This document shows, one piece after another, positions 1,427-60,433 of a DNA stretch of 64,000 bases. The stretch spans positions 434,001-498,000 of the forward strand of contig CP032507.1 in assembly GCA_008375315.1 (NCBI GenBank). Direction: 5' to 3'. Below the pieces are notes generated by a model. It was not told the origin of the DNA. It saw only the letters and a program-made list of their open reading frames with translations, and ran no database searches. The stretch is from Ectothiorhodospiraceae bacterium BW-2 (GTDB lineage Bacteria; Pseudomonadota; Gammaproteobacteria; Thiohalomonadales; Thiohalomonadaceae). Made by a program: the position numbers and the translations under genes. Numbering within the stretch: position 1 is the stretch's first letter; each line of letters begins with the position of its first letter.

Positions 1427-1459
1427 GTGTCACTTGAAAAGAGTAAGGTATCCTGACTA

Positions 1460-1852: not shown

Positions 1853-1868
1853 GTAGAGGAGTTAAACA

Positions 1869-2276: not shown

Positions 2277-2287
2277 GAGAAGGACAC

Positions 2288-2587: not shown

Positions 2588-2629
2588 TTAATTTTCTGTT
2601 GTTATTTAAACTGTAAGGAGAGAAGCACT

Positions 2630-2962: not shown

Positions 2963-2981
2963 ATCCATTCGCATCGGGATT

Positions 2982-3001
2982 GAGGGCGGCTGACCGCCCT
3001 C
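2982..3001 (+). promoter_or_regulatory. Hairpin between dsrC and dsrM
   Basis: The arms gagggcgg (2982-2989) and ccgccctc (2994-3001) form a perfect 8-bp stem with a 4-nt loop. A run of cytosines follows instead of thymines, so it is not a classical terminator. Its place after dsrC suggests it may protect the 3' end of a dsrC-containing transcript or weaken read-through into dsrM; that is inference. Confidence 0.5.
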
Positions 3002-3031
3002 CCCCACTGCCGTTTAACGGAGGGTCAATTA

Positions 3032-3751
3032 ATGTCAGTGCTATTTGCACTTCTGTTCTATGCAGCGACTGCGCTGTTTATTGCCGGGTTGGCTTATCGA
3101 ATCGGCCTCTATTTTAAGACTCCGGCACCGTTAAAGATTCCCACGACTCCGGCTCCAACGACCCAGTCGGGTGTGCTGTGGCGTATGGCACGGGAGGTGC
3201 TCTTCTTTGAAAGCCTATTTAAATCGAACAAATGGATCTGGTTGTTCGGCTACCTGTTTCATGTCGGGCTGGCGCTGGTTCTTATGCGTCACCTACGCTA
3301 CTTTACCGATCCAACTTGGGGGTGGGTAGAGTTTATTCAGCCTTTTGGTATCTATGCCTCTTTCGCTATGGTCGCAGGACTGCTCGGACTCTGGCTGCGA
3401 CGGGTATTAGTGCCCCGTATTCGCTATATCTCTAACCCTTCAGATCATCTCATGCTGTTTCTACTAGTGATGATTGGCGTCAGCGGCATGATGATGAAGT
3501 TTGTCAGCCATACCGATATCGTCATGGTTAAACAGTATATGCTCGGTCTGATGCGCTTTGAGATTCGAGACCTCCCTATGGATGGTCCGCTACTCATCCA
3601 TCTGACTTTGGTGGCTGTTTTGATGATTATCTTCCCGATTAGCAAGCTGCTGCACGCTCCGGGAATACTCTTCAGCCCGACCCGTAATCAGGTCGATAAC
3701 CCGCGCGAAAAACGCCACTTGGCATCGTGGGCAGCTGAGCTAGACAAATAA
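3032..3751 (+). CDS. dsrM: DsrM, membrane heme b subunit of DsrMKJOP
   Basis: This 239-residue integral membrane protein resembles the gamma subunit of respiratory nitrate reductase. It is expected to bind heme b and move electrons between the quinone pool and DsrK. Several hydrophobic segments are visible (about 1-25, 70-88, 110-127, 143-158, 190-208). Histidines in YLFHVGLALVLMRHLRYF and LIHLTLVAVLMI/KLLHAPG are candidate heme ligands. The ATG follows a GGAGGG site. dsrK starts 36 nt downstream. Confidence 0.93.
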   Translation: MSVLFALLFYAATALFIAGLAYRIGLYFKTPAPLKIPTTPAPTTQSGVLWRMAREVLFFESLFKSNKWIWLFGYLFHVGLALVLMRHLRYFTDPTWGWVEFIQPFGIYASFAMVAGLLGLWLRRVLVPRIRYISNPSDHLMLFLLVMIGVSGMMMKFVSHTDIVMVKQYMLGLMRFEIRDLPMDGPLLIHLTLVAVLMIIFPISKLLHAPGILFSPTRNQVDNPREKRHLASWAAELDK

Positions 3752-3787
3752 ACCGTAACTCCAACTTTAAAGTGACAGGAGAGTCGT

Positions 3788-5359: not shown

Positions 5360-5429
5360 TTTAACCGAATCTATCCGTTTTAACCCAAATTTACCTAACA
5401 AAATTTTATAGCATAGGAGATTAACACTG

Positions 5430-7421
5430 ATGGCTACTTCCAGCGACGCAATGCAGAAAGATTTTACCTTCCGCCGCTATCAAGATGGCGACCATGAACA
5501 TAGAGGCTCTTGGAGTGACGAGATTTTCCAAGCTAGCTGGTCACATAAGTGCCCTACCTATGTGCATCGCACCCCCCCTTGCCAAGGTAGCTGCCCCTCC
5601 GGTCACGACATTCGTGGCTGGCTCGATATTGTTCGCGGTATCGAAAAGCCTGTCGGCGACATGACCATGCAGGAGTACGCTTTCCGTCGCGCTACCGATG
5701 CGAACCCCTTCCCCTCGGTGATGGGTCGAGTCTGCCCCGCCCCTTGTGAAGATGGCTGTAACCGTAACATGGTCGAAGATCATGTCGGCATTAACTCGGT
5801 CGAGCAGTACATCGGCGATCAGGCACTCAGTAACGGCTATAAATTTGAAGCCGGTGCCGAAACAGGCAAAAAGGTGGCGATTATCGGCGGTGGCCCCGCC
5901 GGTCTTGCCGCAGCCTATCAGCTACGCCGTTTAGGTCACGGGGCGACAATTATCGAGATGCAGCAGGAGCTCGGCGGCATGATGCGCTACGGCATCCCCG
6001 GCTACCGTACGCCAAGAGATGTACTCGATGGTGAAATTAACCGTATTATCGATATGGGGGTCGAAGTTAAGACATCGACTAAAGTCGGACGGGATATCAC
6101 TCTGGCGCAGATTGAGAACGATTTTGATGCCATTTTATTCGCGAACGGGGCTTGGTCGGGCCGCGCACTCCCTATTCCGGGGGCCGATGCGGTTAACTGC
6201 ATCTCCGGTATCGCCTTTCTAGCTGCCTTCAATGAGGGCCGCCTAAAGCATGTCAGTGGCAAAGTCGTTGTTGTCGGTGGTGGTGATACCTCTATCGATG
6301 TCGCCTCGGTAGCCCGTCGCCTCGGCAATATTACCGTTGAGAACGAAAAAGATCGTCCAGAGCATGTCGTCATTAACCAAACCGCACACGATGTTGCCGA
6401 AACGGCGGCTCGTCAAGGTGCTGATGTCATGCTTATCTCCCGCTCCTCGCTAGAGAATATGCCGGCTGCCGAGCATGAGCTCGAAGACGCGACCCGTGAA
6501 GGGGTCGAGATTATCGGCCAACTCAATCCGGTAGAGGTCATTAAAGGTGCCGATGGTCGCGCCAAGGCGCTGCGGGTCTGTCAACTCGAAGCCGATGGCA
6601 AGACTCCGATTGAGGGCTCTGAGTATGAGATTGAGTGTGAACTGATTGTCGCCGCTATCGGTCAAACCGGTGACATGAGCGGAATGGAGGGGGTCGCCAA
6701 TGAGCGCCACCTCGTCGATGCCGACAAAAATTTCCAAATCAAGGGCAAAGCCGGCTATTTTGCCTGCGGTGATATCGTTCGCCCCCACCTGCTCACCACG
6801 GCGATTGGTCAGGCGAGTATTGCGGTCGAGAGCATTAACTTCTACCTCAATAGCAAAGAGCTGAGACCTCGGCCTAAGGTCGATGTTCACCACTTCAATC
6901 TATTAGCAAAGCTGCGTGAAACCGGCCACACTCCTGAAGCATACCAATCACTCGATGCAGAGAGCGTCAAGGCCGAAGAGGGGTACGCTAAAGAGATCGA
7001 TCTCGGTAAACGGGGAACTTCGGAGGAGAAGTATGCCATTCACAACTACGAAGATCGCTCTAGCCAAGAGATTATCTCCTCCGATATGCTCTTTTTAGGC
7101 CATTTTGAAGAGACTCCCCGCTACAAGCGTGAGCACATTAAGGTCTATGCCGAAGATGTCATCGGTAACTTCCAAGAGCGGCTGCAACCTCTGAGCGAAG
7201 AGGATGTCATTAAAGAGGCCAAACGCTGCATGAGCTGCGGTATGTGCTTTGAGTGCGATAACTGTGTCATCTTCTGCCCGCAGGATGCGGTTAAGAAGAC
7301 GCCCAAAAAGGATTCGACGACCGGTCGTTATGTCTATACCGACTATAACCGCTGTATCGGTTGCCACATCTGCGCCGATGTCTGCCCTACCGGCTATATC
7401 GATATGGGTATGGGTGAGTAA
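5430..7421 (+). CDS. dsrL: DsrL, iron-sulfur flavoprotein NAD(P)H oxidoreductase
   Basis: This 663-residue protein resembles the small subunit of glutamate synthase with added iron-sulfur modules. DsrL takes electrons from DsrAB during sulfur oxidation and reduces NAD(P)+. In order: an N-terminal cysteine block (PPCQGSCPSGHDIRGW), an FAD Rossmann motif (VAIIGGGPAGLAAAYQL), a second nucleotide motif (VVVVGGGDTSIDVA), and a C-terminal two-cluster ferredoxin domain (CMSCGMCFECDNC, CIGCHICADVCPTG). The C-terminal ferredoxin module is expected for the oxidative DsrL-1 type. The ATG follows a TAGGAG site, and dsrJ starts 20 nt downstream. Confidence 0.95.
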   Translation: MATSSDAMQKDFTFRRYQDGDHEHRGSWSDEIFQASWSHKCPTYVHRTPPCQGSCPSGHDIRGWLDIVRGIEKPVGDMTMQEYAFRRATDANPFPSVMGRVCPAPCEDGCNRNMVEDHVGINSVEQYIGDQALSNGYKFEAGAETGKKVAIIGGGPAGLAAAYQLRRLGHGATIIEMQQELGGMMRYGIPGYRTPRDVLDGEINRIIDMGVEVKTSTKVGRDITLAQIENDFDAILFANGAWSGRALPIPGADAVNCISGIAFLAAFNEGRLKHVSGKVVVVGGGDTSIDVASVARRLGNITVENEKDRPEHVVINQTAHDVAETAARQGADVMLISRSSLENMPAAEHELEDATREGVEIIGQLNPVEVIKGADGRAKALRVCQLEADGKTPIEGSEYEIECELIVAAIGQTGDMSGMEGVANERHLVDADKNFQIKGKAGYFACGDIVRPHLLTTAIGQASIAVESINFYLNSKELRPRPKVDVHHFNLLAKLRETGHTPEAYQSLDAESVKAEEGYAKEIDLGKRGTSEEKYAIHNYEDRSSQEIISSDMLFLGHFEETPRYKREHIKVYAEDVIGNFQERLQPLSEEDVIKEAKRCMSCGMCFECDNCVIFCPQDAVKKTPKKDSTTGRYVYTDYNRCIGCHICADVCPTGYIDMGMGE

Positions 7422-7441
7422 TAACCACTTTGGAGATTCTG

Positions 7442-7909
7442 ATGCGAATGAAGCGAGTCAATCAGCTTCTCAAATCGGCTACCGTTGTGCTGGCAGTCGC
7501 ACTGCCAGCCGGCGTTTACGCTGAATCGGGGCTATCCATTCCGGCCCCGGTCAAAGGCAAGCAGTGTGTGGAACCGACCGATCAGATCCGTCGTAACCAC
7601 ATGGACTACTTGATGCACCAACGAGATAAGACTATGCGTGAGGGGATTCGTACCCAAAAATATAGTCTTAAAGAGTGCATCAACTGCCATGTTCCTGCCA
7701 AAACGGCTCCACAACAGGCAACTGGCGACCACTTCTGCATGAATTGCCATCAATACACTAGTGTCAAGATCGACTGTTTTGAGTGCCATGCGACCCATCC
7801 AGAAGCGGATGCGACGACCACTCTCAGTCCCAAGATGGGCAACTCGACGATTGCCCACCGAGCACTATCCCACTCACCTGAGCAAGCTGTCAGTTCAAAC
7901 GGTAATTGA
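7442..7909 (+). CDS. dsrJ: DsrJ, periplasmic triheme cytochrome c
   Basis: About 155 residues with an N-terminal signal sequence (KRVNQLLKSATVVLAVALPAGVYA). Three CxxCH heme c motifs are present: CINCH, CMNCH and CFECH. DsrJ is the periplasmic cytochrome of the DsrMKJOP complex; one heme in the family has unusual His/Cys ligation. A longer frame opens at a TTG at 7430. I chose the ATG at 7442 because a GGAG site (7432-7435) sits 6 nt upstream and would lie inside the longer version; the ATG at 7448 is also possible. dsrO begins 6 nt after the stop. Confidence 0.92.
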   Translation: MRMKRVNQLLKSATVVLAVALPAGVYAESGLSIPAPVKGKQCVEPTDQIRRNHMDYLMHQRDKTMREGIRTQKYSLKECINCHVPAKTAPQQATGDHFCMNCHQYTSVKIDCFECHATHPEADATTTLSPKMGNSTIAHRALSHSPEQAVSSNGN

Positions 7910-7915
7910 TCTATT

Positions 7916-8677
7916 ATGAATTCCAATCAACCGATCTCATCATCACGCCGTCATTTTCTGCTCGGCAGTGGCAAAGCCGCCGCTGCCGCCTCACTCGGCG
8001 GCGGAGTGTTTCTCTACGGAGCCCAGTCACAGGCGCGTGCCCCTGAAGAGCCGGCCTCGAACAAAGTTCGTTGGGGAATGTTAATCGATACCACCCAGTG
8101 TGCCGATGGTTGCAGTGACTGCGTGACTGCCTGCCAGAGTGAGCACGGTTGGGGGGGAGAGGAGAATAGCGAGAAGCGGTCGCGTCCCGATCAGCAGGCG
8201 CAGTGGATTCGCAAAGTCAAACTGAAAGATTTGACCACCCAAGCGACCCACTCCCTACCGATTATGTGTCAACACTGCGACAATCCGCCCTGTGTCGATG
8301 TCTGCCCGACCAAAGCCTCCATGATTCGCGCCGATGGCGTCGTCCTAGTTGATCGCCACGCCTGTATCGGCTGTCGCTACTGTATGATGGCCTGCCCCTA
8401 TAAGGCTCGCTCATTTATTCACGAGTCGATTAGCGACCAAAAACCCTATATGCCCCGCGGCAAAGGGTGCGTTGAGTCGTGTACGCTCTGTGTGCACAAA
8501 CTTGATGCAGGTGAGAACGAGACCGCCTGTTCGAGCGCCTGTGAACACAATGCGATTCTCGTAGGCGACCTGAACGATCCCGAGAGTAAAATCAGTCAGC
8601 GGCTCAAGTCACAGATGACCACCCAGATTCGTGCCGATCTAGGTCTCAATCCGGGCGTTCGTTACATAGGGATCTAA
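7916..8677 (+). CDS. dsrO: DsrO, Tat-exported periplasmic iron-sulfur protein
   Basis: This 253-residue protein resembles the ferredoxin subunits of DMSO/polysulfide reductases. A twin-arginine signal (SSRRHFLLGSG, then an alanine-rich segment) marks it as exported in folded form. Four cysteine groups for [4Fe-4S] clusters are visible: CADGCSDCVTAC, CQHCDNPPCVDVC, CIGCRYCMMACPYKA and the CVESCTLC/CSSACEH pair. It is expected to link DsrJ to the NrfD-like DsrP. It sits 6 nt after dsrJ and 15 nt before dsrP. Confidence 0.94.
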   Translation: MNSNQPISSSRRHFLLGSGKAAAAASLGGGVFLYGAQSQARAPEEPASNKVRWGMLIDTTQCADGCSDCVTACQSEHGWGGEENSEKRSRPDQQAQWIRKVKLKDLTTQATHSLPIMCQHCDNPPCVDVCPTKASMIRADGVVLVDRHACIGCRYCMMACPYKARSFIHESISDQKPYMPRGKGCVESCTLCVHKLDAGENETACSSACEHNAILVGDLNDPESKISQRLKSQMTTQIRADLGLNPGVRYIGI

Positions 8678-8692
8678 AGTTAAGGTTTTACC

Positions 8693-9895
8693 ATGAAACA
8701 GCTTCGTTTTTCACAAGTGGACTCCGGCCTCGGCTTCTATCTGCTGTTGGCTATTTTAGGTGCAATTAGCGCCGTCGGCCTCTGGGCGACCGCGATTATG
8801 GAGCATGAGGGTCATGTCGTGACCGGCATGAGTAATCAGGTTGTCTGGGGGATGCCACATATCTTTGCCATCTTTCTGATAGTGGCCGCCTCCGGTGCGC
8901 TCAATATCGCCTCTATCGCCTCGGTGTTTGGCAAGAAGTTCTATAAACCGCTAGCTCCGTTGTCGGCTCTGCTCGCCGTCGCCTTGTTAAGCGGGGGGCT
9001 CGCGGTGCTAGTGCTCGATTTAGGCAAGCCCGATCGACTCACCGTTGCCATGACCCAAATGAACTTTAAGTCGATCTTCTCTTGGAATATCATCCTCTAT
9101 AACGGCTTTTTAGCCATTGTGCTGGCCTATATGTGGGTGATGCTCGATAAACCGATGCAAAAATACTCCACCGCCGTCGGAACACTCGCCTTTGTCTGGC
9201 GGCTGGTTCTGACCACTGGTACCGGCTCAATCTTCGGCTTTCTAGTCGCTCGTCAAGGTTATGATGCGGCCATTATGGCACCAATGTTTGTGGTTATGTC
9301 CTTTGCCTACGGTCTGGCCTTCTTCTACATCGTCCTTAGCGCCACCTATCGTATGACGGGAAGGGAGCTTGGCAAAGTGATGATTAATCGGCTGCGACTG
9401 CTGCTAGCTATCTTTATTGCCGGTGCCTTCTACTTTACCGCAGTGCAGCATCTCACTAATCTCTACGCCACCGAGCACCACGGCTTTGAGGCCTTTATCC
9501 TACGGGATGGCGGTATCTATACCACCGTATTCTGGCTCGGCCAAGTTCTCATCGGCTACCTGATCCCCTTTGCACTGCTGCTCTATCCGGCAACCGCTCA
9601 GAGTCGTTGCGGTGTCGCTTTCGCCTCCTTTCTAGTCATTATCGGTGGTTTCGCCCAAATGTATGTGACAGTCATTGGTGGCCAAGCCTATCCACTACAA
9701 CTCTTCCCCGGCTATGAGGTGAGCAGTAGCTTCTACGATGGCGTTGTTGCTGACTACAGCCCTAGCTCTTACGAGACACTGCTCGGCTTTTTGGGCATCT
9801 CGCTAGCGCTGATTATTGTCACCATCGCGGTGCGTAATCTACGCTTGCTACCGGTCTCACTTGCCGATGCCGCCATCGATCCACACCACAAGTAA
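8693..9895 (+). CDS. dsrP: DsrP, NrfD-like membrane subunit
   Basis: This 400-residue polytopic membrane protein of the NrfD/PsrC family has about ten hydrophobic segments. With DsrO it forms the quinone-interacting module of DsrMKJOP. It starts MKQLRFSQVDSGLGFYLLL and shows family-like stretches such as LDLGKPDRL and FSWNIILYNGFLA. It is the last gene before a strong terminator at 9911-9935, so it closes the dsr transcript. Confidence 0.93.
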   Translation: MKQLRFSQVDSGLGFYLLLAILGAISAVGLWATAIMEHEGHVVTGMSNQVVWGMPHIFAIFLIVAASGALNIASIASVFGKKFYKPLAPLSALLAVALLSGGLAVLVLDLGKPDRLTVAMTQMNFKSIFSWNIILYNGFLAIVLAYMWVMLDKPMQKYSTAVGTLAFVWRLVLTTGTGSIFGFLVARQGYDAAIMAPMFVVMSFAYGLAFFYIVLSATYRMTGRELGKVMINRLRLLLAIFIAGAFYFTAVQHLTNLYATEHHGFEAFILRDGGIYTTVFWLGQVLIGYLIPFALLLYPATAQSRCGVAFASFLVIIGGFAQMYVTVIGGQAYPLQLFPGYEVSSSFYDGVVADYSPSSYETLLGFLGISLALIIVTIAVRNLRLLPVSLADAAIDPHHK

Positions 9896-9910
9896 CTTCC
9901 CACACACCTT

Positions 9911-9935
9911 AACCGGCCTTCTGGCCGGTTTTTTG
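9911..9935 (+). terminator. Rho-independent terminator after dsrP
   Basis: The perfect 8-bp stem aaccggcc (9911-9918) / ggccggtt (9923-9930) has a 4-nt loop ttct and is followed by a T-rich tract (gttttttgttt). It lies 15 nt beyond the dsrP stop and marks the 3' end of the dsr operon. Confidence 0.93.
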
Positions 9936-10000
9936 TTTGTAGGCTTTTTTCTCCCTCTATCTGACCCTATTTAAGCGGTTACCACAACCAATCAGGAACG

Positions 10001-10999
10001 ATGACCATGCAGCAAGAACACCCCTTTGCAGAGATTATTCGTATTTTGGGCAAAGGCCGTAATGGCTCCCGAGGTCTCACTTATGATGAGGCTTATCGGG
10101 CGATGAGTATGATCATGGCCGAAGAGGTCGAACCGGTTCAGCTCGGTGCCTTTTTAATGTTAATGCGAGTCAAAGAGGAGAGTCCTGAAGAGGTCGCCGC
10201 TGCCGTCAATGCCATTAAACCGACGCTTACTATTCCGACCGATATGCCGACTGTCGATATCGACTGGTCCTCCTATGCCGGTAAAAAGCGGGTACTACCA
10301 TGGTATCTGCTCGCGACACTCTTAATGGCTCAAAATGGGCTGAAGATCTTTATGCATGGTGCCAGTGGCCATACCGCCGGCCGCATCTACACTAAAAATA
10401 TCCTGCCACAGCTCGGTCTTGAACCGGCCACATCGCTCGATGAGGCCAAAACCCAGCTACAGCAGCACAACTTTAGCTATATCGATTTAGAGCACCTATC
10501 CCCTAAACTGCACCAAATAATAGAGATGCGGCCCCTACTAGGACTACGCTCTCCAGTACACACTATCGCCAGACTATTAAACCCGCTCGATGCTGAGACC
10601 GTCATGCAGGGTATCTTCCACCCCGGCTACCGACCCACCCATCAAGAGGCCGGACTGAAGCTAAATATCCCCCATCTAGCGGTCATTAAAGGGGAGGGAG
10701 GAGAGATTGAACGCAATCCCGACCAGCCGCTACTCATTCAGAGTGTCCATAACGGCACCCTGAGCGAAGAGGAGTGGCCGGCGATGTTTGACAAACGCCA
10801 CACCCGCTCCGATGAGCTTATCGTTGACAATATGGTACAGCTATGGCGTGGTGAGTTAGAGGATGAGTATGCCGAAGCGGCCACTATCGGCACGGTCGCA
10901 GTGGCCCTCTATACCCTACAGCGATCTGCGAATCGGGAGGAGGCAGAGGCCACCGCTCAACAGTGGTGGCAGCAGCGAGATAGAGAGCGACTATTTTAA
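10001..10999 (+). CDS. TrpD2/YbiB-like glycosyltransferase family 3 protein
   Basis: This 332-residue protein has the anthranilate phosphoribosyltransferase fold. The helical N-terminal domain (LTYDEAYRAMSMIMAEEVEPVQ, read in parts) and FMHGASGHTAGRIYTKN match TrpD/YbiB relatives. The glycine-rich PRPP loop (GTGGDG in real TrpD) is replaced by WSSYAGKKRVLPW. The protein is therefore unlikely to make phosphoribosyl-anthranilate and fits TrpD2/YbiB, a group linked to nucleic-acid binding. It starts at ATG 10001 after AGGAACG, behind the dsr terminator, and lies 15 nt before the dsrN-like gene. Its role here is unknown. Confidence 0.82.
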   Translation: MTMQQEHPFAEIIRILGKGRNGSRGLTYDEAYRAMSMIMAEEVEPVQLGAFLMLMRVKEESPEEVAAAVNAIKPTLTIPTDMPTVDIDWSSYAGKKRVLPWYLLATLLMAQNGLKIFMHGASGHTAGRIYTKNILPQLGLEPATSLDEAKTQLQQHNFSYIDLEHLSPKLHQIIEMRPLLGLRSPVHTIARLLNPLDAETVMQGIFHPGYRPTHQEAGLKLNIPHLAVIKGEGGEIERNPDQPLLIQSVHNGTLSEEEWPAMFDKRHTRSDELIVDNMVQLWRGELEDEYAEAATIGTVAVALYTLQRSANREEAEATAQQWWQQRDRERLF

Positions 11000-11014
11000 C
11001 CCCCCTCCCCTACC

Positions 11015-12388
11015 GTGCAAGCTCTCTACCTTGCCGCACCGCATAAGTCATCCGGCAAGACCACTATCACTATCGCCCTAGCCGCTACCCTCACGGCTAG
11101 GGGGAGTGTTACGCAGCTATTTAAAAAGGGGCCTGACTATATCGATCCGATGTGGCACCAGAGCGCCTCTAATCGCCCCGGAGTTAATCTCGACTTCCAT
11201 ACGCTAACTCAGGCTGAGATAGTAGCTCGGTTTCACCACTATAGCCGTGATGCCGATTTTGCCATCGTTGAGGGCAATATGGGGCTCTTCGATAGCCTTG
11301 ATGTCGCTGGCCATGAGAGTAATGCCGAGCTAGCAAAACTGCTACAGACGCCGGTCGTATTAGTGGTTGATGCTAAGGGGGCAACCCGTAGCTGGGTTGC
11401 AATGATTCAGGGGCTGCAACAGTTTGATCCCGAGCTAAAGTTCTGTGGTCTGATATTTAACAATGTGGCAGGAGAGCGCCATCGCCAACGGCTACAGCAG
11501 GTGGTAGAGCACTACCTTGATACACCATTGCTAGGGGCGCTACTACGCGATCCCGCGCTCAATATTGATGAGCGCCATTTAGGATTAATTCCCAGCCCTG
11601 AGTGTAGCCAGAGTCGTCCCATTATTGAGCGCCTAATCAGTAGCGCTAGCGAACAGATCGATATTGATCTGCTATGTGAGCAGTTAACTGACTATCCGCT
11701 CCCCTCCCCCTCGCCCCCCCGCTGCCATAGTCGCGTAGCCCATCTACGCATCGCCATTGCCCGCGATGAGGCGTTTAATTTCTACTACACCACCGATCTC
11801 GACTACTTCCAGCGCTGTGGCGTTGAACTAGTCCCCTTTAGCCCGATTCGCGATCCCCAACTGCCACCCAATATTGACGCACTATTGATTGGCGGCGGTT
11901 TCCCTGAGAACTTTGCCGCTGAACTAGCGGCCAATCGGATGCTACGACACCAGATAGCAGCCAAAATTGAGGCAGGCCTACCCACCTATGCCGAGTGCGG
12001 CGGGCTTATCTACCTCTCTAAATCGCTACAACAATCTCAGCGCCGAGATAGCCTGATCGGCGTTATCCCCGCTAGCTGTCAACTACACTCCAAACCGGTA
12101 GGGCGCGGCTACGCCCGTTTTACCCCGACAGCGAACCACCCCTGGCCTTTGGCCAGAGCCCACCAGCAGCCGGTGGCGGCACACGAATTTCATTATAGCG
12201 ATATTCAGTTTCACTCTAACACTCCAAAGTGGCAACCTGCCTATCAACTCCAACGAGGTCACGGCATCGGTAATCGACTCGATGGTTACTGCCATCACAA
12301 CCTACTCGCCAGTTATCTCCACCTACAACATAGCCAAAATTTCCCGTGGATAGACTACTTTATCGATTTTATTCAGCGGGTTAAGTAG
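11015..12388 (+). CDS. dsrN: Cobyrinate a,c-diamide synthase family protein, DsrN-like
   Basis: This 457-residue protein belongs to the CbiA/CobB family. The N-terminal dethiobiotin-synthetase-like ATPase domain has the P-loop SSGKTTI (about 11-17) and VEGNMGLFD. The C-terminal class I glutamine amidotransferase-like domain has the nucleophile Cys in YAECGGLIYLS and HEFHYSD near the end. In Allochromatium, dsrN follows dsrP and is proposed to amidate siroheme to siroamide for DsrAB. The position supports the dsrN name, but a cobalamin enzyme cannot be excluded from sequence alone. The start is GTG, 15 nt after the TrpD2-like gene. It is convergent with the next gene, 49 nt away. Confidence 0.85.
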   Translation: MQALYLAAPHKSSGKTTITIALAATLTARGSVTQLFKKGPDYIDPMWHQSASNRPGVNLDFHTLTQAEIVARFHHYSRDADFAIVEGNMGLFDSLDVAGHESNAELAKLLQTPVVLVVDAKGATRSWVAMIQGLQQFDPELKFCGLIFNNVAGERHRQRLQQVVEHYLDTPLLGALLRDPALNIDERHLGLIPSPECSQSRPIIERLISSASEQIDIDLLCEQLTDYPLPSPSPPRCHSRVAHLRIAIARDEAFNFYYTTDLDYFQRCGVELVPFSPIRDPQLPPNIDALLIGGGFPENFAAELAANRMLRHQIAAKIEAGLPTYAECGGLIYLSKSLQQSQRRDSLIGVIPASCQLHSKPVGRGYARFTPTANHPWPLARAHQQPVAAHEFHYSDIQFHSNTPKWQPAYQLQRGHGIGNRLDGYCHHNLLASYLHLQHSQNFPWIDYFIDFIQRVK

Positions 12389-19797: not shown

Positions 19798-21594
19798 TTA
19801 AAGTTTATCGAGCATGAGGTCTTTTATCAGATCAATTTGGGCTTCCGCTTTCACGAGCTCAGTCTCAAGTAGCTGCTGTCGCTGCTCGTTTTCCTGATTA
19901 CGCTGTTGTAGCTGCTGGTTCTGTTGGGTTAACTCGCCTTGACTCGACTCTAACGCTGCAACACGGCTCTTAAGCTGATCTCGCTCGGCTGTAACCGACT
20001 TATGGGTTTCAGTCAATTCGTGTAGCTGTTTTCGCGCTGCATCGCGCTCACCAGTAAGGCTTTTAGTCGCTTCGGTCAGCTCTGTGGCTTGGTTGCGGGC
20101 ACTATCGCGCTCGGCGGTGAGATTTTTATTTGCCTCAGTCAGCTCAGATGCCTGTTTACGGGCACTATCTCGCTCGGCGGTGAGGTTTTTAGTCGCTTCA
20201 GTGAGTTCTGATGCCTGCTTGCGGGCACTATCGCGCTCGGCAGTGAGGTTTTTAGTCGCTTCGGTCAGCTCTGTGGCTTGCTTGCAGGCACTATCGCGCT
20301 CGGCGGTGAGGTTTTTAGTCGCTTCAGTGAGTTCTGCTGCCTGCTTGCGGGCACCATCGCGCTCAGCAGTAAGGTTTTTATTTGCTTCGGTCAGCTCTGT
20401 GGCTTGCTTGCGGGCACTATCGCGCTCGGCAGTGAGGTTTTTAGTCGCTTCGGTCAGCTCTGTGGCTTGCTTGCGGGCACTATCGCGCTCGGCGGTGAGG
20501 TTTTTAGTCGCTTCAGTGAGTTCTGCTGCCTGCTTGCGGGCACCATCGCGCTCAGCAGTAAGGTTTTTATTTGCTTCGGTCAGCTCTGTGGCTTGGTTGC
20601 GGGCACTATCGCACTCGGCGGTGAGGTTTTTAGTCGCTTCAGTGAGTTCTGCTGCCTGCTTGCGGGCACTATCGCGCTCGGCGGTGAGGTTTTTAGTCGC
20701 TTCAGTCAGCTCTGCTGCCTGCTTGCGGGCACTATCGCACTCGGCGGTGAGGTTTTTAGTCGCTTCAGTCAGTTCTGCTGCCTGCTTGCGGGCACTATCG
20801 CGCTCGGCGGTGAGGTTTTTATTTGCTTCAGTGAGTTCTGCTGCCTGCTTGCGGGCACTATCGCGCTCGGCGGTGAGGTTTTTAGTCGCTTCAGTCAGCT
20901 CTGCTGCCTGCTTGCGGGCACTATCGCGCTCAGTGGTTAACTGATTTAGCTGCTGCGAGAGCTGTAGATTCTGCAGCATCATATCGTTGCGTTTTAGCTT
21001 CCAACAAGGTCTATCGGGGTCACGACTCTCATCCTGCTCTGTGACTTCATACCCCTGAGTCGCCAACCACTCTACCACCTCTGCGGCGGCTACACTGTCG
21101 TGATAGAGAGCATCAATACCACAATAGAGCTCTATCTGGCTAAACTGACCTAACTGCTCGGTCGCAGCAAGCGCCTGTAGCAGCGGTAACTCTACTCCCG
21201 GTGTATCGATCACCAACAGCTGCGGCAGCTGACTATCTAAATTTAACCCAGCCATTAGCTCAGCAACCGGTTCACTCGCCACTTCAAGCTGCTCTAGCAG
21301 CTTTAACCCCGGATAGAGCTGTTTTAGCCCGGTCGCTTGATGCAGACTATTAGCCTGCGGCAAGTTATAACGATAGAGCGTGCTATTAGAACCGCGCTCG
21401 GCCGTTACGGCAACACGCTTAATCTCTACTTCAGTCGTGGGTTGAAGCTGCTCTATCTGCTGCTGTAGTAGTGCAGACTGCTCAGGATCAGCTTCTATTA
21501 AGATCAGTTTTTGTGGCTGTTGGGGCAAATAGTCGGGTAGTTCACTACCGTTACCAGCTCCCAGATAGATAATCGTCTGTAGTTGCGCGTTCAT
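19798..21594 (-). CDS. FkbM-like methyltransferase domain fused to a 21-residue-repeat coiled coil
   Basis: 598 residues. Residues 1-200 form an FkbM-like SAM-dependent methyltransferase domain: TIIYLGAGNGSELPDYL (SAM motif I), LILIEADPEQ (acidic ribose-binding position) and LLVIDTPGVELPLLQAL (the FkbM vDveG region). From about 205 to the end the protein is coiled coil. About fifteen tandem copies have the consensus TAERDSARKQAAELTEATKNL, 21 residues or three heptads each. The layout resembles WbdD-type chain terminators with a coiled-coil ruler, but no kinase domain is present. A 63-bp DNA repeat encodes the rod. It neighbours a second coiled-coil gene in the ABC-type polysaccharide locus. 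Confidence 0.8.
   Translation of the reverse strand: MNAQLQTIIYLGAGNGSELPDYLPQQPQKLILIEADPEQSALLQQQIEQLQPTTEVEIKRVAVTAERGSNSTLYRYNLPQANSLHQATGLKQLYPGLKLLEQLEVASEPVAELMAGLNLDSQLPQLLVIDTPGVELPLLQALAATEQLGQFSQIELYCGIDALYHDSVAAAEVVEWLATQGYEVTEQDESRDPDRPCWKLKRNDMMLQNLQLSQQLNQLTTERDSARKQAAELTEATKNLTAERDSARKQAAELTEANKNLTAERDSARKQAAELTEATKNLTAECDSARKQAAELTEATKNLTAERDSARKQAAELTEATKNLTAECDSARNQATELTEANKNLTAERDGARKQAAELTEATKNLTAERDSARKQATELTEATKNLTAERDSARKQATELTEANKNLTAERDGARKQAAELTEATKNLTAERDSACKQATELTEATKNLTAERDSARKQASELTEATKNLTAERDSARKQASELTEANKNLTAERDSARNQATELTEATKSLTGERDAARKQLHELTETHKSVTAERDQLKSRVAALESSQGELTQQNQQLQQRNQENEQRQQLLETELVKAEAQIDLIKDLMLDKL
19980..20940 (-). repeat. 63-bp in-frame minisatellite, about 15 copies
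   Basis: Near-identical 63-bp units run head to tail across the coiled-coil part of the methyltransferase gene. The unit begins gcctgcttgcgggcactatc on the + strand. Differences between units fall at a few fixed positions (Thr/Asn, Arg/Cys, Ala/Thr/Ser, Ser/Gly), and the pattern of variants recurs along the array, implying repeated duplication of blocks. Units at the left end (encoding the C-terminus) are degenerate. Copy number is likely to vary between cells and is prone to misassembly. Confidence 0.93.
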
Positions 21595-21639: not shown

Positions 21640-23916
21640 TTAAACCGCGTCTAACGCCTCTCTGCTGCCGACAGCGGCAATAGCCCGCCCCTCTTGCTGT
21701 CCAAAATTTAAGTAGTGGATTAGGGGGTTAATCCCCATCGCTGCCACATCGGTGTGTTGATTCAGATAATAAGCAGTATCGAAATGGGGTGAGGGATTGC
21801 GTAATTCACCGGCACCAAACTGTAAAAAGTGGAGCGCAGGGTCGATATCGGCTTCAGCCACATCAGGGTTATGGGCTCTATACCACGCTTCGTCAAACAG
21901 TTCAGACTGGCGAATCGTTTCGGCCATTTTTTTAAGCGCCTTTTTACGCTTCTGCTTCTGTAGTGGATTCAGTTTAGCAACGAGCCCTCTCCCTTGCTGC
22001 TGCTGTGTCTGTAGATGAATAGCGCCATGGAGCCGGCCTAGTGTGGTTATCTTCTCATTTAACTGCTGTTCTAATTTTAATCGAAACTTTTCGTTTTGAG
22101 TTAGCTGCTGTTGTAACTGCTGTTCGCGCTGCTGCCATGCCTGCAACTCACTATTTAACTGCTGGTTCTCCTCTATCCGCTGCTGCAGTTGCCACTGTAG
22201 CTCTTCCGCTTCGGTTGTTTTATCACTATAACTCAGTTGCAGTTCGCTGTGCTGTTCCTGAAGTTGGTAGAGCTCCTCTGCAGCAAGTCGGTTTTCATCT
22301 ATCAGCCCCTGCTCTTTCTGCTCTAACGATTTAATCTGCTGCTGGCGCTGCTCTAACTGCTGCTCTGTCTGCTGATTTTGTAGATAGAGCTCTTCTAAGC
22401 TCTCTTGTACACTATGGAGCTGTAGCAGGATTAACTCGTTCTCTTCAGTTAGCTCCTGTTGACTACTCTGTAGCTGTTCAAACTGCTGTTTTTGCTGCTG
22501 ATACTGCTCCTTAAGCTGTTGTGTTTGCTTATTAGCTTCACTGCGTTCAGCAATGAGGGTTTTATTTGTTTCACCAAGCTCTTTGGCCTGCTTACGGGCA
22601 CTATCTCGCTCAGTGGTAAGGTTTTTAGCCGCTTCGGTCAGCTCTGCAACCTGTTTACGGGCACTATCGCGTTCAGTGGTAAGGCTTTTATTTGATGCGG
22701 CGAGCTCTGCAGCCTGCTTTTGGCTTTGCTGTAGCTGCTGCTTATGGTTGTTTGTCTCCCCTTCTAACTGCTTAATCCGCTGTTGACTGTCACTAAGCCG
22801 CTGTTGCTGTTGTTTGAGTTCACTCTCTAACTGCTGCTTCTGTTGATAGGTCTCCTCTAATGACTCTTGCACGCTATGGAGCTGTAGCAGCAGCAGTTCG
22901 CTCTCTTCTGTGAGCTCTTTCTCTCTGGCCTGCAGAGTATCACTCTGCTGCTTCTGCTGCTGATATTGCTCCTTAAGCTGTTGTACTTGCTTGTTAGCAC
23001 TATCGCGTTCAGTGGTAAGGCTTTTATTCGATGCGGCGAGCTCTGCAGCCTGCTTTTGGCTTTGCTGTAGCTGCTGCTTATGGTTGTTTGTCTCCCCTTC
23101 TAACTGCTTAATCTGTGTCTGACTCTCGCTGAGTTGGCGGCTCCTGCCACTTAACTCCATCTCTAGCTGTTTAACCCGATGCTGACTTTCACCAAGCCGC
23201 TGTTGCTCTATTTGAGCTTGGGCTAAGTCGGTCACCATTTGGTGATAGGCTCTATAGAGCTGTTCAAACTGAGCTGTCCAATCTACCTCTAACAGCTCCG
23301 ACAACGGCCAACTGCTCGCTTCCAGCTCTCGCTGTAGGCGATTAATCTCATCATCCGGCAGATAAGCGCTAGCCAGTACGCTCTCTAACCTGAGTTCAGA
23401 GAAAGGATCCACAGGATCCCAATGGTGCTCTCCATGCGGTAGATTAAGCCCAAAAGTCGTTAAAGTCTGAATCAATTCGGTAGGCGATGCGACCACCTGA
23501 CCACTATGAAGGAGTAACGCCCGCCGACGCTGCATGCGCTGAAACTGTAACAGTTGGCGACTAGACTCCCGCCACTGCGCCACCATCAGATCCGGCTCAA
23601 CGCCAGATTGAAGCGCCGTGGCCAGTGCGGAACGAAAAGGGAGATAGAACAGCAGAAAAGTAGCCTGCGGCAATCGTTTGTGCCACTTCCCCAGCGCGAA
23701 GGGATCGGACTCTTCAATCCAGTAGATCGCTGCATCGTCAACCGGCTCAGGCAAATGTGCCTGAAGTAGTGTCAAATCGACCCCACCGGAGGCATCTTCA
23801 GATGATAACAGCGGCTGCAATAGAGTTGTCGGAATTGGGGTAAATAACTCCGCCAATATCGGTTGAACACGGCTCCAACCGCTATAGGGTGCTGCTGTGC
23901 TAATCACAAATCGCAT
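21640..23916 (-). CDS. Long coiled-coil protein with C-terminal NPDV modules
   Basis: 758 residues. The N-terminal ~230 residues are globular and not recognised (MRFVISTAAPYSGWSRVQPI, YWIEESDPFALGKW). A glutamine-rich coiled coil follows (about 235-650). It includes two copies of the TERDSARKQ-type unit that makes up the neighbouring methyltransferase rod, and two duplicated blocks of SQKQAAELAASNKSLTTERD. The C-terminus has two modules of the form FDxxYYxxxxPDVxxxxxxPxxHxxxFGxxE, shared with glycosyltransferases of this locus. Start ATG with GAGG upstream. A scaffold or length-sensing role in polysaccharide assembly is inference. Confidence 0.72.
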   Translation of the reverse strand: MRFVISTAAPYSGWSRVQPILAELFTPIPTTLLQPLLSSEDASGGVDLTLLQAHLPEPVDDAAIYWIEESDPFALGKWHKRLPQATFLLFYLPFRSALATALQSGVEPDLMVAQWRESSRQLLQFQRMQRRRALLLHSGQVVASPTELIQTLTTFGLNLPHGEHHWDPVDPFSELRLESVLASAYLPDDEINRLQRELEASSWPLSELLEVDWTAQFEQLYRAYHQMVTDLAQAQIEQQRLGESQHRVKQLEMELSGRSRQLSESQTQIKQLEGETNNHKQQLQQSQKQAAELAASNKSLTTERDSANKQVQQLKEQYQQQKQQSDTLQAREKELTEESELLLLQLHSVQESLEETYQQKQQLESELKQQQQRLSDSQQRIKQLEGETNNHKQQLQQSQKQAAELAASNKSLTTERDSARKQVAELTEAAKNLTTERDSARKQAKELGETNKTLIAERSEANKQTQQLKEQYQQQKQQFEQLQSSQQELTEENELILLQLHSVQESLEELYLQNQQTEQQLEQRQQQIKSLEQKEQGLIDENRLAAEELYQLQEQHSELQLSYSDKTTEAEELQWQLQQRIEENQQLNSELQAWQQREQQLQQQLTQNEKFRLKLEQQLNEKITTLGRLHGAIHLQTQQQQGRGLVAKLNPLQKQKRKKALKKMAETIRQSELFDEAWYRAHNPDVAEADIDPALHFLQFGAGELRNPSPHFDTAYYLNQHTDVAAMGINPLIHYLNFGQQEGRAIAAVGSREALDAV

Positions 23917-44400: not shown

Positions 44401-46089
44401 TTAGAGATCGAGCACAACTTTAGCACTAATGGCCACCTGATAGATAATCTGCATCATATCCTTCCAAAACTGGCGCGATTTTAGCTCAACCCGAGGCAAA
44501 ACCATGACCTCATCACCGCTTTTGATTAATAGCTGTTTACCGCTATCGCTATAGGTTGAAAAACTACCATCGCTATGGGCGATCACAATACGGGAGGTAT
44601 CGGCACTTTGACTATACCCACCGGAGAGATCGATATAGTCATCCAGCCCTAGAACTGCATCATAGGCGATAGCATTTGGATAGAGCACTTCCCCACTCAC
44701 CAACACCAAGCCATCTTTAGTCGGAATACGAATAATATCGCCACTCTCTAGGGGAAGCTCCATCAGTTGGCTACTTCTGGCAATCACTACCTGCCCTTTA
44801 GGTTCAATGTCACGCGCGAGCTGTATCCAGCGTAAAATTAATTCCGCTTCATTTTTACGCAGCTCTGCTTCAGCCGAAGAGCCGGAGCGAGTGGTGAGAA
44901 TACGGGTCTCCATTCCATCAAGAGCCCGATTCAGACTCTCTTTTTGCCGCTCAGCTACACTGTGGCGAAACAGTTGCGGATAGTATAGGTCTGAGCGGCT
45001 GTTAAACTCAATTTTTGCCAACAGCTCCCCCATTAGGGTACCACTTGGCAAGACATACTCCTGTGGGCTGTTATGAGCACCCTCGACTCTTACCGAGATA
45101 GTTCCAGCCTTTTTATCTGCCGTCACCGCTACCACATCACCCGCATAAACCACACTCCCCTGTAACCCCTCTAGCGGCAGATAGTCAACATTAGTCGTCA
45201 TGCCACTGTTACGGGTAATCCGAATATGGGTTGCCACCGGCTCGGGTCGGGCTAATGAGAGCAGCGCATCGAGGCTAAATTGTGATGATTTAAACTCAAA
45301 CTGCTTCGGGTTCTCAACCAGTCCGGTCACCTGTACTACCTTTTGCCGTGGTGGTACAAAGATTACATCCCCCGAACGGAGCTGATAGTGAGGCAAGACT
45401 CCATTTACCAAAAAATCGTAGAGATTAATCTTTGCCCGAATCTGGTTACCTCGTTTAATCTGAATATCCAAAAAGGTACCCCGCTCGGTATCGATCCCCC
45501 CCGCTTTATCGAGATAGTAGAGCACACTATCCATACTAGTACCACCGTAGGCACCGGGTCGGTTAACATAGCCGCCGACATAGACCTGTAATGGCTGGGC
45601 TGCTGCTAGGGTGACATAACTAAAGACATTGGCTTTAAAGGTTCGTTTAATCGCTTTTTCAACAAGCTGTTGCAGATCACGATTAGCAACCCCCTGTAGT
45701 TTTACCGGCCCGACATGAGGAATAAAGATATTCCCCTGCAGATCAACATCAAGCAGGGTATCGATTTCAAACCCGCCCCACATTCTTAGCTGCACCCGAT
45801 CCCCCTGATGAATCACATAGTCAGGATTAAAGGGAGTCCCCTCTTCTGCTGCAAAGGCACCGGTAAAGAGCTGTGCCCCAAAGACATCGCTCTCAAGATT
45901 ATATTGGTAATCCTCCTGCTGCGGTAGTAGCGGCACCCCACTCTCTGTCGCAGTAGCAGTATCGATTGCTGTCCTAGGGGGAGGAGAAGATAACCCGAGC
46001 GCTTGATTCACGCCAAAAAGGTCATTAGCCGTAGCGACCGTGACAACCAGAATAGGTAACAGAATAGAATAGGCGAAAGGTTTTACCAT
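44401..46089 (-). CDS. Polysaccharide export protein, KpsD/Wza family
   Basis: This 562-residue protein has an N-terminal signal peptide (about 1-22). The polysaccharide export domain reads VIHQGDRVQLRMWGGFEIDT and LDLQGNIFIPHVGPVKLQG-like, followed by several SLBB-type beta-grasp repeats (VYVGGYVNRPGAYGG, VVQVTGLVENPKQFEF, VLVSGEVLYPNAIAYD). The length matches KpsD (about 560) rather than Wza (about 380), and no lipobox cysteine is visible. It should form the periplasmic/outer-membrane part of the capsule export channel with the KpsE-like protein 5 nt upstream. Confidence 0.92.
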   Translation of the reverse strand: MVKPFAYSILLPILVVTVATANDLFGVNQALGLSSPPPRTAIDTATATESGVPLLPQQEDYQYNLESDVFGAQLFTGAFAAEEGTPFNPDYVIHQGDRVQLRMWGGFEIDTLLDVDLQGNIFIPHVGPVKLQGVANRDLQQLVEKAIKRTFKANVFSYVTLAAAQPLQVYVGGYVNRPGAYGGTSMDSVLYYLDKAGGIDTERGTFLDIQIKRGNQIRAKINLYDFLVNGVLPHYQLRSGDVIFVPPRQKVVQVTGLVENPKQFEFKSSQFSLDALLSLARPEPVATHIRITRNSGMTTNVDYLPLEGLQGSVVYAGDVVAVTADKKAGTISVRVEGAHNSPQEYVLPSGTLMGELLAKIEFNSRSDLYYPQLFRHSVAERQKESLNRALDGMETRILTTRSGSSAEAELRKNEAELILRWIQLARDIEPKGQVVIARSSQLMELPLESGDIIRIPTKDGLVLVSGEVLYPNAIAYDAVLGLDDYIDLSGGYSQSADTSRIVIAHSDGSFSTYSDSGKQLLIKSGDEVMVLPRVELKSRQFWKDMMQIIYQVAISAKVVLDL

Positions 46090-46094
46090 AACAA

Positions 46095-47186
46095 TTAATC
46101 CTGATGATCACGAATGATAGATAACATTAACTCAAAAATAGCCGCTAAAATGAGTGCCGCTAAGGTAAAAGCGAGGCTATTATATATCCTCTCCGGCATC
46201 AGCGGATATTGCGGTGAGGTCGGGCTCTGCAAAATAGAGACCTTTTTCAAGGTACGGGTCGCATCAATGCGCCCCTTCTCTAGGGCCACTAATGCCGTCC
46301 GATAGGTATCCTGAGCAAACTCATCCATCAGTTTCAAACTTTGGTACTCCTGTACCGTCTGATTCAGCGCCTCCCCACTACTAGAGGCGAGGCGGCGCTT
46401 CTCGGCAGCGATCTGCTCCTTAACTGACTGGATCTGCATATCGGCCTCGACGACAGCCGAGGCATCTCTGCTGAGATAAGCTAACATGGTCGAACGCTTA
46501 GTATTTAACTCAGTTAACTGTCCTTCAAGTTTATTAATCGTCGCCGCTAGACTCTGTACTGTCCCCTCCGGCGAGACCATCTCATTGCGGTTCTGAAACT
46601 CCAACAGCTGCTGTCTAGCGGCGAGTGCAGTAGCTTGGCGCTCATCTACCTGCTGCTCTAAAAAGGCGACCTGTTCACGCGCTAACCGATGAGCGAGCAG
46701 ATTCATATAGCGCTCACCATCCTCGACTAAACGCGATGCAATTGCTTTAGCCATCTCCGGCGTATAAGCCTGTGCCTGAATCACCAAAATCCCCGCCTCT
46801 GGGTCAAATTCAATGAGAGTGCGATCCTGATAGTGGCTATGAAACCACTCTATCGGCGCATCCGCCTGCCACATCCGCGAAATAATATCATACGCCGGAT
46901 CACTATAGTGGTGGCGCAGGTCAAGCTGTTCATCTAGTAGCAACAGCATATCGACAGAGAGCAGATAGTCCATTAACAGCAACTGCTCAGTATTGCTAAT
47001 TGAACTACTACCCGTCAGTATGGCGCTAAAATCGACACTCTGCCCGCCACTCATATCGGTACGCTGAATCACGATATGCGCTTCAGAGATATAGCGATCT
47101 GAGGCAATAAAAGCCCAATAAGTAGCAACTAAAATTGAGGCGATCAGCGCTAAGCGAAACGAGTTTTTTTTCGGAATCCACTTCAT
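46095..47186 (-). CDS. Capsule export inner-membrane protein, KpsE/CtrB type
   Basis: About 363 residues from ATG 47186, which has AAGGA upstream; the TTG at 47195 is a longer alternative. Transmembrane segments near residues 10-28 and 335-353 flank a large periplasmic coiled-coil domain (HRLAREQVAFLEQQVDERQ, INKLEGQLTELNTKR). A PxxP-type motif (SPTSPQYPLMPERIYN) sits before the second membrane segment. This is the polysaccharide co-polymerase layout of ABC-dependent capsules. It links the ABC transporter to the KpsD-like protein. Confidence 0.9.
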   Translation of the reverse strand: MKWIPKKNSFRLALIASILVATYWAFIASDRYISEAHIVIQRTDMSGGQSVDFSAILTGSSSISNTEQLLLMDYLLSVDMLLLLDEQLDLRHHYSDPAYDIISRMWQADAPIEWFHSHYQDRTLIEFDPEAGILVIQAQAYTPEMAKAIASRLVEDGERYMNLLAHRLAREQVAFLEQQVDERQATALAARQQLLEFQNRNEMVSPEGTVQSLAATINKLEGQLTELNTKRSTMLAYLSRDASAVVEADMQIQSVKEQIAAEKRRLASSSGEALNQTVQEYQSLKLMDEFAQDTYRTALVALEKGRIDATRTLKKVSILQSPTSPQYPLMPERIYNSLAFTLAALILAAIFELMLSIIRDHQD

Positions 47187-47216
47187 GGTTAACAATCCTT
47201 AGATAATGCTATGAGT

Positions 47217-47906
47217 CTAACCTACTTTTTTGGCTCTATTTTTTGCTTCGATACAGCTATTATAGGCCTCAAGTGCATCTTCAACTCGATCAAACCACAA
47301 CACCTTGCCCTGAAACAGAAAAATACCAGCTTGGCAAAACTCTTTTAACTGCTCTTCAGCGTGCGACACCATAATCAGACTAGAGCGCCCCATCAAATCT
47401 TCAAATGCCTGTTTAGCTTTCTGCTTAAACGCCTTATCGCCGACAGCCGTCATCTCATCAGAGAGGTAAACATCAAAATCAAACGCTAGCGACAACGCAA
47501 AGGTGAGCCTTGCTTTCATACCACTGGAGTAGGTGGATACCGGCTCATAGAACGATTTACCAATTTCAGAAAAGTCCTGAATCTGTTGTAAAACATCGGC
47601 CATACTCTGCTCAACACCATGTACTCTGCAGAGAAATTTGGCATTTTGATGCCCACTCAATTTAGGGTGTAATCCTCCACCAAACCCTAACGGCCAAGAG
47701 ATACGACAGTTACGAACAATTTTACCTTGATTAGGCTGCTCTAAACCGCCAATCAGACGCAATAGTGTCGATTTACCGGCACCATTATGGCCAATGAGTC
47801 CCACATTAACCTGTGCCGGAATAGTTAGAGTAATATCATCCAATACCCAAGGCCCGGGGCCTTTAGCGGTAATATAGCGTTTACTGACTTGCTGTAGTTC
47901 AATCAT
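47217..47906 (-). CDS. Polysaccharide ABC transporter ATPase, KpsT type
   Basis: This 229-residue ATPase has Walker A GHNGAGKSTLL, signature YSSGMKARLTFALSLAFD, Walker B-like VYLSDEMTAVGD and the switch His in IMVSHAEEQL. It is short, like KpsT/CtrD, and has no extra C-terminal carbohydrate-binding domain as in Wzt(O9a). The terminus of the polysaccharide is therefore probably not read by this ATPase. It is coupled to the permease gene by an ATGA overlap (47903-47906). Confidence 0.95.
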   Translation of the reverse strand: MIELQQVSKRYITAKGPGPWVLDDITLTIPAQVNVGLIGHNGAGKSTLLRLIGGLEQPNQGKIVRNCRISWPLGFGGGLHPKLSGHQNAKFLCRVHGVEQSMADVLQQIQDFSEIGKSFYEPVSTYSSGMKARLTFALSLAFDFDVYLSDEMTAVGDKAFKQKAKQAFEDLMGRSSLIMVSHAEEQLKEFCQAGIFLFQGKVLWFDRVEDALEAYNSCIEAKNRAKKVG

Positions 47907-48709
47907 CGCATCAAAATCTGCTGCTCATAACGACGAATTAATAGCAGACCAAAAAAAAAGCTGCCAACGGCCCACTTAGCCAAATAGTCTATCTCAATCG
48001 GCTCGAACGGCAGATAGGGATCGGCAAAACCGTGCCTCACCGCTGCCACACCATGCATCAAGGGGTTGTAGGTCAAATATTCGAAGACTTCAGGAATATT
48101 TTGAAATCGCTCTAAAGGAAAGATAACACCTGAAGTAATAAACAGCGGTCGATGCATAAAGTCGAGAATTTTAGCCACAAACGGCGACATGATCTTACAG
48201 ACCGCATGAACCATAGCATACCCTACCCCTAACAGCGCCATCAGTGCTGCCGCCTCTATAATTGTTAATAGCGTATCTGGAAAGATATCAAATTGAAACA
48301 GCACCCAACTACCCAGCAGAATCACTATAGCAACAAGCAGTTGCAGATAAATCGACAAAAACCCTTTAACCAGTATCGTATCGACGACTTTAACCTGCCG
48401 ATAGGCGATAAGCTGCTTATTCGCATTAATCGCATTAGAGGCCTGATTCGCAGGCAACTGAAACAGATAGTAGAACAGCACACCAGTCATAATCCAGACT
48501 TCAGTCTCCATCCCCTCGATAATTCTCATTCTGATAAAGGTAAACATTAAAATCAGAAAAATAATTAATAGCAGCGGATTAACGACTATCCATATCCAGC
48601 CATACTCCCCCTCTTTAGCGGTAAGAACCTGCATCGCCTCGCGCAAAAAGAGTGCGCGCCAGACTGCCCAGGTCACCTGCCACTGTGTTCGTGTATTATT
48701 TTGAGTCAA
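47903..48709 (-). CDS. Polysaccharide ABC-2 permease, KpsM type
   Basis: This 268-residue protein has about six membrane segments (for example WIVVNPLLLIIFLILMFTF, MALLGVGYAMVHAVCKI). ITSGVIFPLERFQNIPEVFEY and YNPLMHGVAAVRHGF are typical of capsule and O-antigen ABC-2 exporters. It moves lipid-linked polysaccharide across the inner membrane with the ATPase encoded next. The start appears to be TTG at 48709, inside the end of the upstream gene (14-nt overlap). Confidence 0.93.
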   Translation of the reverse strand: MTQNNTRTQWQVTWAVWRALFLREAMQVLTAKEGEYGWIWIVVNPLLLIIFLILMFTFIRMRIIEGMETEVWIMTGVLFYYLFQLPANQASNAINANKQLIAYRQVKVVDTILVKGFLSIYLQLLVAIVILLGSWVLFQFDIFPDTLLTIIEAAALMALLGVGYAMVHAVCKIMSPFVAKILDFMHRPLFITSGVIFPLERFQNIPEVFEYLTYNPLMHGVAAVRHGFADPYLPFEPIEIDYLAKWAVGSFFFGLLLIRRYEQQILMR

Positions 48710-56714: not shown

Positions 56715-56729
56715 AACACTAAACTCCAA

Positions 56730-60312: not shown

Positions 60313-60433
60313 GTGCGATCCTTAATTTACTCGTTCCCACGCTCCAGCATGGGAACGCAGATCTACCCCAAACAAGCGCTAGTATGAATTTCCACGGTGA
60401 CCGTGGGAACCCAAAAAGCGCATACCGACACCC
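60313..60433. repeat. Spacer between AAA copies with two hairpins
   Basis: The 121-bp spacer holds the palindrome cgttccca (60332-60339) / tgggaacg (60350-60357) and a second one, ccacgg (60392-60397) / ccgtgg (60401-60406). The first is a common dispersed palindrome type in sulfur bacteria and relatives (from memory). No promoter is obvious. Confidence 0.6.

Follow-up and report, generated by a model that had tools for sequence, protein, structure and literature searches.

A gene pair with enzyme-like heads on repeat-built helical arms in a capsule-type polysaccharide locus: a candidate length-adjustable glycan-tailoring module

Two adjacent genes, here called A and B, lie in a capsule-type ABC export locus of Ectothiorhodospiraceae bacterium BW-2 and may act together as a two-protein module for glycan tailoring whose arms are adjustable in length, arm length setting where or when the chain is modified; we advance this reading tentatively, as a little short of an even chance. 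Each product is predicted to comprise an enzyme-like head (a methyltransferase fold in B, perhaps a sulfotransferase in A), a long helical arm and a C-terminal end. The window, i.e., the whole 64-kb stretch of DNA that was analysed, had received an initial annotation that centred on B; the partner A, which carries part of B's repeat unit, and the recurrence of repeat arrays across the family both go beyond it. Coordinates are collected in Table 1.

Table 1. Features of the A/B pair and of the export genes, in window coordinates.
Feature	Position	Strand	Basis
Gene B, methyltransferase-fold head and repeat-built helical arm, 598 aa	19798..21594	-	one ORF
B N-terminal domain, residues 1-204, class I methyltransferase fold (predicted), FkbM-like below cut-off	20983..21594	-	profiles, AF2
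SAM motif I, LGAGNGSE, residues 11-18	21541..21564	-	sequence, family comparison
LIEADP, acidic residue after strand 2, residues 32-37	21484..21501	-	sequence, family comparison
Array of 15 units of 63 bp/21 aa, B residues 222-536	19987..20931	-	TRF, unit alignment
B C-terminal end ELVKAEAQIDLIKDLMLDKL, residues 579-598	19801..19860	-	relatives' ends similar by eye
Gene A, head (possible sulfotransferase fold), coil and C-terminal module, 758 aa	21640..23916	-	ORF, HMM, model
A N-terminal domain, residues about 1-210, no Pfam match	23287..23916	-	poor model, best matches sulfotransferases
2-3 copies of B's 21-aa unit within the A coil	22556..22719	-	TRF, unit alignment
A C-terminal module, FDxxYYLxxxxDV...PLxHYLxxGxxEGR-like, no Pfam match	21643..21933	-	also in 41754-44375 by eye
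OPX-like polysaccharide export protein	44401..46089	-	profile match
KpsE/BexC/CtrB-like inner-membrane protein	46095..47195	-	profile match
Polysaccharide-type ABC ATPase, 229 aa, no room for a C-terminal carbohydrate-binding domain	47217..47906	-	ORF, profiles
KpsM-like ABC permease	47903..48709	-	profile match

The head and repeat array of B

The repeat structure of B agrees with the initial annotation, which had counted about fifteen 21-residue units encoded by a 63-bp minisatellite: 14 near-identical units begin at residue 222 and are followed by a decayed 15th (residues 516-536) and a hardly recognisable 16th. At the DNA level, TRF reports 14.1 copies of a 63-bp period with zero indels and a score of 1313, the highest among the three arrays in the window. 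Units 7 and 10 have the same sequence, and a stretch of 120 nt recurs exactly at a distance of 189 bp (three units), which points to multi-unit duplications. When the 14 units are compared codon by codon, 4 of the 21 columns are invariant, 9 carry silent changes only and 8 carry residue changes. Two antisense frames on the + strand, at 20084-20944 (286 aa) and 20278-20940 (220 aa), are open inside the array, probably because a 63-bp period repeats any open frame.

The tail of B, 394 residues long and entirely free of proline, is matched by coiled-coil Pfam families and is probably helical and of the coiled-coil type. Its strong 3.5-residue periodicity (z-score 31.6 over the whole tail) is inflated by the repetition itself, so that a test on the single unit is the fairer one; there the heptad signal is weak, with shuffled units equalling its 3.5-residue power in 17% of trials (P 0.17) and with best core letters of A/L/L and R/A/T. 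The earlier description of the unit as three heptads is right as arithmetic (21 = 3 x 7) but finds little echo in the unit's own heptad signal. With so weak a core, a single helix is conceivable; B may alternatively assemble as a coiled-coil oligomer. On the assumption of a full helix, the fifteen units would span 46.8 nm, which reproduces the earlier figure of about 47 nm, and the whole stretch from residue 222 to residue 598 about 56 nm.

The head had been described as an FkbM-like SAM-binding domain. LGAGNGSE, LIEADP and the predicted methyltransferase fold uphold this description, but the FkbM profiles score below their curated cut-offs (PF05050, 18.9 bits against 22.7; TIGR01444, 29 bits against 37.7). 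An AF2 model of the head built from two sequences (mean pLDDT 71) retrieved structures that are, by title, almost all methyltransferases; the best VIA-align match was rat COMT (Z 11.1, 150 residues, rmsd 3.3), with many rows tied, and Foldseek placed WbdD (4azt) at rank 23 (E 4.4e-4). The model supports a class I methyltransferase fold, and the intact motif suggests that the window's B may be active with SAM. A separate phmmer search of the PDB with B gave weak matches, mostly to haloalkane dehalogenases, which were judged to be chance.

The partner gene, its locus and the wider family

Gene A lies directly upstream of B and has two or three copies of B's 21-aa unit in its coil, the closest pair differing at 10 of 63 bases. 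When six A heads were scanned against Pfam, four, including that of the window, were without a match, and two had matches far below cut-off. Structure comparison of the window's A head returned sulfotransferases as the top PDB matches; since the model is poor (pLDDT 52.6), this likeness is a lead only, and the fold is perhaps that of a sulfotransferase. By its consensus FDxxYYLxxNPDV...PLxHYLxxGxxEGR, the C-terminal module of A (21643-21933) is, by eye, common to A and the glycosyltransferase at 41754-44375.

The initial annotation's placement of B in an ABC-dependent polysaccharide locus is borne out. On the same strand as B runs a series of glycosyltransferases, sulfotransferases (PF03567, PF09037) and KpsE-like, OPX-like, KpsM-like permease and ATPase (KpsT-like) genes; the exporter genes span 44401-48709, about 23 kb from B, and their profile matches are strong (TIGR01010, 6.8e-73; KpsM, 3.6e-28), yet under the NCBIfam cut-offs. 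The KpsM/KpsT/KpsE/OPX-like set is shared with group 2/3 (Kps-type) capsule loci; unlike these, the genome has no match to KpsC/KpsS (PF05159), a profile that was positive in 2 of 14 controls. A search of the same genome for Wzt_C (PF14524) likewise gave 0 matches, again with 2 of 14 controls positive.

Elsewhere in the window, positions 356-12388 hold what we take by eye to be a dissimilatory sulfur-oxidation (dsr) cluster, followed by a CbiA/CobB-like gene, which suggests a sulfur-oxidising gammaproteobacterium. A 12-bp repeat (a TDTATD-type run) occupies 56582-56613, close to where a lipoprotein-like gene (55263-56729) begins. At 58534-63998 a 592-aa protein is encoded three times in tandem, the third copy being cut by the window's end; by eye the copies look very similar and belong to an AAA-ATPase/nuclease-like family.

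For the family comparison, 31 B loci were opened (the window, locus L032 and 29 regions) and 29 were kept, after removal of L116 and L117, in which FkbM domains are fused to other enzymes; nine plasmid loci bring the set to 38. Weaker FkbM-like matches, and plasmid records from Ensifer, Azospirillum and Neorhizobium, were left outside it. Locus L104 was retained; by eye, its B gene ends inside the head and is followed by a transposase-like ORF (7696-9703). By eye, too, the B proteins of L033 (7217-9250) and L101 (5335-7512) carry a second methyltransferase-like domain past the coil.

A B-like head was present in 1 of 95 related genomes, namely the organism's own, in a set that contains no other genome of its genus. 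At class level, early queries found heads in 7 of 369 genomes, and an 11-row profile found them in 15 of 369; the early queries also gave 17 of 398 genomes for the phylum, and the profile 10 of 121 and 32 of 179 for two families. All of these counts include plain FkbM domains. In the genus of genome G830, B occurs in 2 of 10 genomes, the two heads being 31% identical over 129 columns. A related-locus search yielded one locus on genome contigs and none on viral contigs.

The pairing with A recurs: an A-like gene is present in 24 of the 29 B loci by HMM, plus two by eye, and stands directly upstream of B in 19 (21 with the by-eye cases), as it does in six of the nine plasmid loci. When 21 neighbourhoods were extended, KpsM- and KpsT-like genes appeared in 11, ten of which also have a KpsE-like gene; the other ten lack the KpsM-plus-KpsT set within the bases fetched, one of them having a KpsM-like ORF and one, by eye, Wzx/Wzy-like genes.

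Within this family the SAM site, scored as kept when the two motif I glycines and the acidic residue after strand 2 were present, is kept in 15 of 29 heads, including the window's, and degraded in 14, which makes a methyl cap unlikely as the common function. A PG pair within an [FY]PGL-like motif is found in 24 of 29 heads. Matches to FkbM at E <=0.01 were obtained for 2 of 11 family heads with Pfam and for 4 of 11 with TIGR01444. The stretch after the head ranges from 59 to 595 aa across relatives (L104 aside) with no preferred length, and the C-terminal ends of distant members are similar by eye.

A heteromeric ruler with matched A and B arms was considered and rejected, as the arm lengths are not reliably correlated. 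With a crude measure, rho was 0.58 (P 0.011) over 18 adjacent pairs; with a better one it was 0.37 (P 0.13) over 18 pairs and 0.27 (P 0.23) over 22; post hoc removal of L109 gave rho 0.63 (P 0.006) over 17. The L102 pair, which stands outside those correlations and combines a 1530-aa A with a 190-aa B tail, further argues against matching.

Recurrent arrays and a one-unit strain difference

Strong arrays, defined by a TRF score of 200 or more, occur in 13 of the 29 B genes, whereas of 609 other ORFs in the same loci 8 have one (odds ratio 61). The controls were stop-to-stop ORFs of at least 250 aa on both strands, outside A and B and with the window excluded, some of which are not genes. Strong arrays are also found in 5 of 26 A-like genes, and an A gene has the most extreme arm of all, with 12.4 copies of an 88-aa unit at 97% match. 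The remaining 16 B genes have no strong array, and in two of the nine plasmid loci, those of Salipiger abyssi and Sulfitobacter sp. D7, an array was looked for and none was found.

The best-scoring B units measure 21, 28 (twice), 32, 42, 49, 56, 60, 63 (twice), 70, 106 and 151 aa, a spread that speaks for several origins, the unit sequences having been compared by eye only. All 13 arrays are in frame, and nine have units that are multiples of 7 aa (binomial P 1e-5); the other four are 4 mod 7 (three) or 1 mod 7 (one). In coiled-coil geometry, 4 and 1 mod 7 correspond to one or two 11-residue steps on top of heptads. Because the set {0,4,1} mod 7 was picked after the first 13 arrays, a fresh test used five plasmid arrays, with three Leisingera arrays counted as one: their units of 35, 35, 39, 42 and 74 aa are only 0 or 4 mod 7 (P 0.014). 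Overall, unit length is a multiple of 7 residues in 12 of 18 B arrays and at 4 or 1 mod 7 in the other six. Of the five A-like arrays, one has a 31-aa unit (3 mod 7) and the other four again fall at 0, 4 or 1 mod 7. The available text of one study (PMC5082667) describes local discontinuities where coiled coils contain insertions.

Two Leisingera strains differ by a single unit. Around the A/B pair, Leisingera sp. NJS204 and M527, both marine isolates, have their genes in the same order, and the B genes (1356 and 1461 bp, respectively) are 93.7% identical with a single 105-bp gap, equal to one 35-residue (five-heptad) unit; their A genes are both 900 bp long and 97.2% identical without gaps. 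The difference is one event, read from deposited assemblies, and indicates that arm length changes by whole phase-keeping units. The 105-bp unit is present in 2.5 copies in L. caerulea, against 3.4 and 4.5 in NJS204 and M527, and the C-terminal end of B in L. caerulea is unlike that of the other two. Comparison of L161 (8947-10122) with L159 (8944-10299), both from Leisingera, reveals C-terminal ends that differ in kind behind similar heads and coils. The repeat-driven change in length that the initial annotation expected is thus seen, as a whole in-frame unit, in these relatives rather than in the window's own species.

Possible roles of the paired arms

If A and B tailor a glycan, gain or loss of tandem DNA units would lengthen or shorten the arm, with frame- and phase-keeping units persisting. 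The arm may be anchored at its C-terminal end, on the polymerase or exporter, and would then keep the head at a set distance from that anchor. The head of B would be catalytic in the window's species and perhaps only sugar-binding where the SAM motif is lost. Arm length would in this way set the site on the chain, or the lateness in growth, at which modification takes place; judged by layout, a link between arm length and polymer length is plausible.

A drifting-length scaffold is nearly as likely as this length-adjustable tailoring module. Under such a scheme, which is possible if doubtful, the arms would just oligomerise or dock A and B, while slippage lets their length drift and phase-breaking units are removed. 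Free drift would give the wide spread of lengths after the B head, and the want of a reliable match between A and B arms, the lopsided L102 pair and the frequency of degraded SAM motifs all fit it. Against it, long arms and similar C-terminal ends are kept in distant members, although this suggests that the arm is needed rather than that its length is read.

The initial annotation had likened B to WbdD, the chain-terminating enzyme of E. coli O9a. A shared layout is evident: WbdD (E. coli O8/O9a), K. pneumoniae WbbB (O12), ORF7 (O4) and ORF6 (O7) likewise place an enzyme head N-terminally, followed by a long helical arm, in an ABC-dependent locus. In WbdD-type terminators an amphipathic membrane helix at the C-terminus brings in the polymerase, and a kinase domain is present in the O9a enzyme and absent from that of O8. 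No kinase family is among the Pfam matches of the whole B protein, and WbdD is absent among the 60 best PDB chains listed by phmmer for B (up to E 1.3). Unlike WbdD-type systems, the B locus has a second arm protein, its family has tandem arrays of differing length, and about half of the family has a degraded SAM motif.

An O9a-type role, in which B methylates the non-reducing end and the cap halts growth and licenses export, would accord with the intact SAM motif of the window's B, the methyltransferase fold, the ABC locus and the long helical arm. In O9a, a module on Wzt recognises the terminated chain (PMC3482155, PMC11231755), and every terminated O-antigen example is stated to possess such a module (PMC11231755). 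The 229-aa ATPase has no room for a carbohydrate-binding domain and the genome no Wzt_C match, which, together with the degraded motifs in 14 of 29 relatives, renders classical capping with exporter recognition unlikely, and quite markedly so. With KpsC/S also unmatched, the likeness of B to WbdD is one of layout and not of membership, and the earlier proposal of a WbdD-like device is supported only in part. Least probable of all is a neutral, non-functional minisatellite or a misassembly of this one genome, as near-identical units and multi-unit duplicates might suggest: the genome is a single contig of 99.73% completeness, frame and phase are preserved, and 13 of 29 family members carry an array in the corresponding position.

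Returning to the tailoring module, a bolder extension would cast A/B as the length control so far missing from Kps-type and related surface polysaccharides, with the minisatellites as a heritable dial of length or modification spacing that dispenses with cap recognition by the exporter; we regard this as unlikely, albeit worth stating. Among the matches listed in a search of open-licence literature, we found no work on FkbM-like coiled-coil proteins or on repeat-length change in polysaccharide loci. If arm length matters, NJS204 and M527, one B unit apart with an equal A, would offer a direct test. The A/B pair is present in distant bacteria, including marine Rhodobacterales that carry it on plasmids, and its helical arms have grown repeatedly by units that mostly preserve helical phase. 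If true, the bolder extension would make A/B a previously undescribed two-gene system, possibly of a sulfotransferase-like A and a methyltransferase-like B on repeat-built arms.
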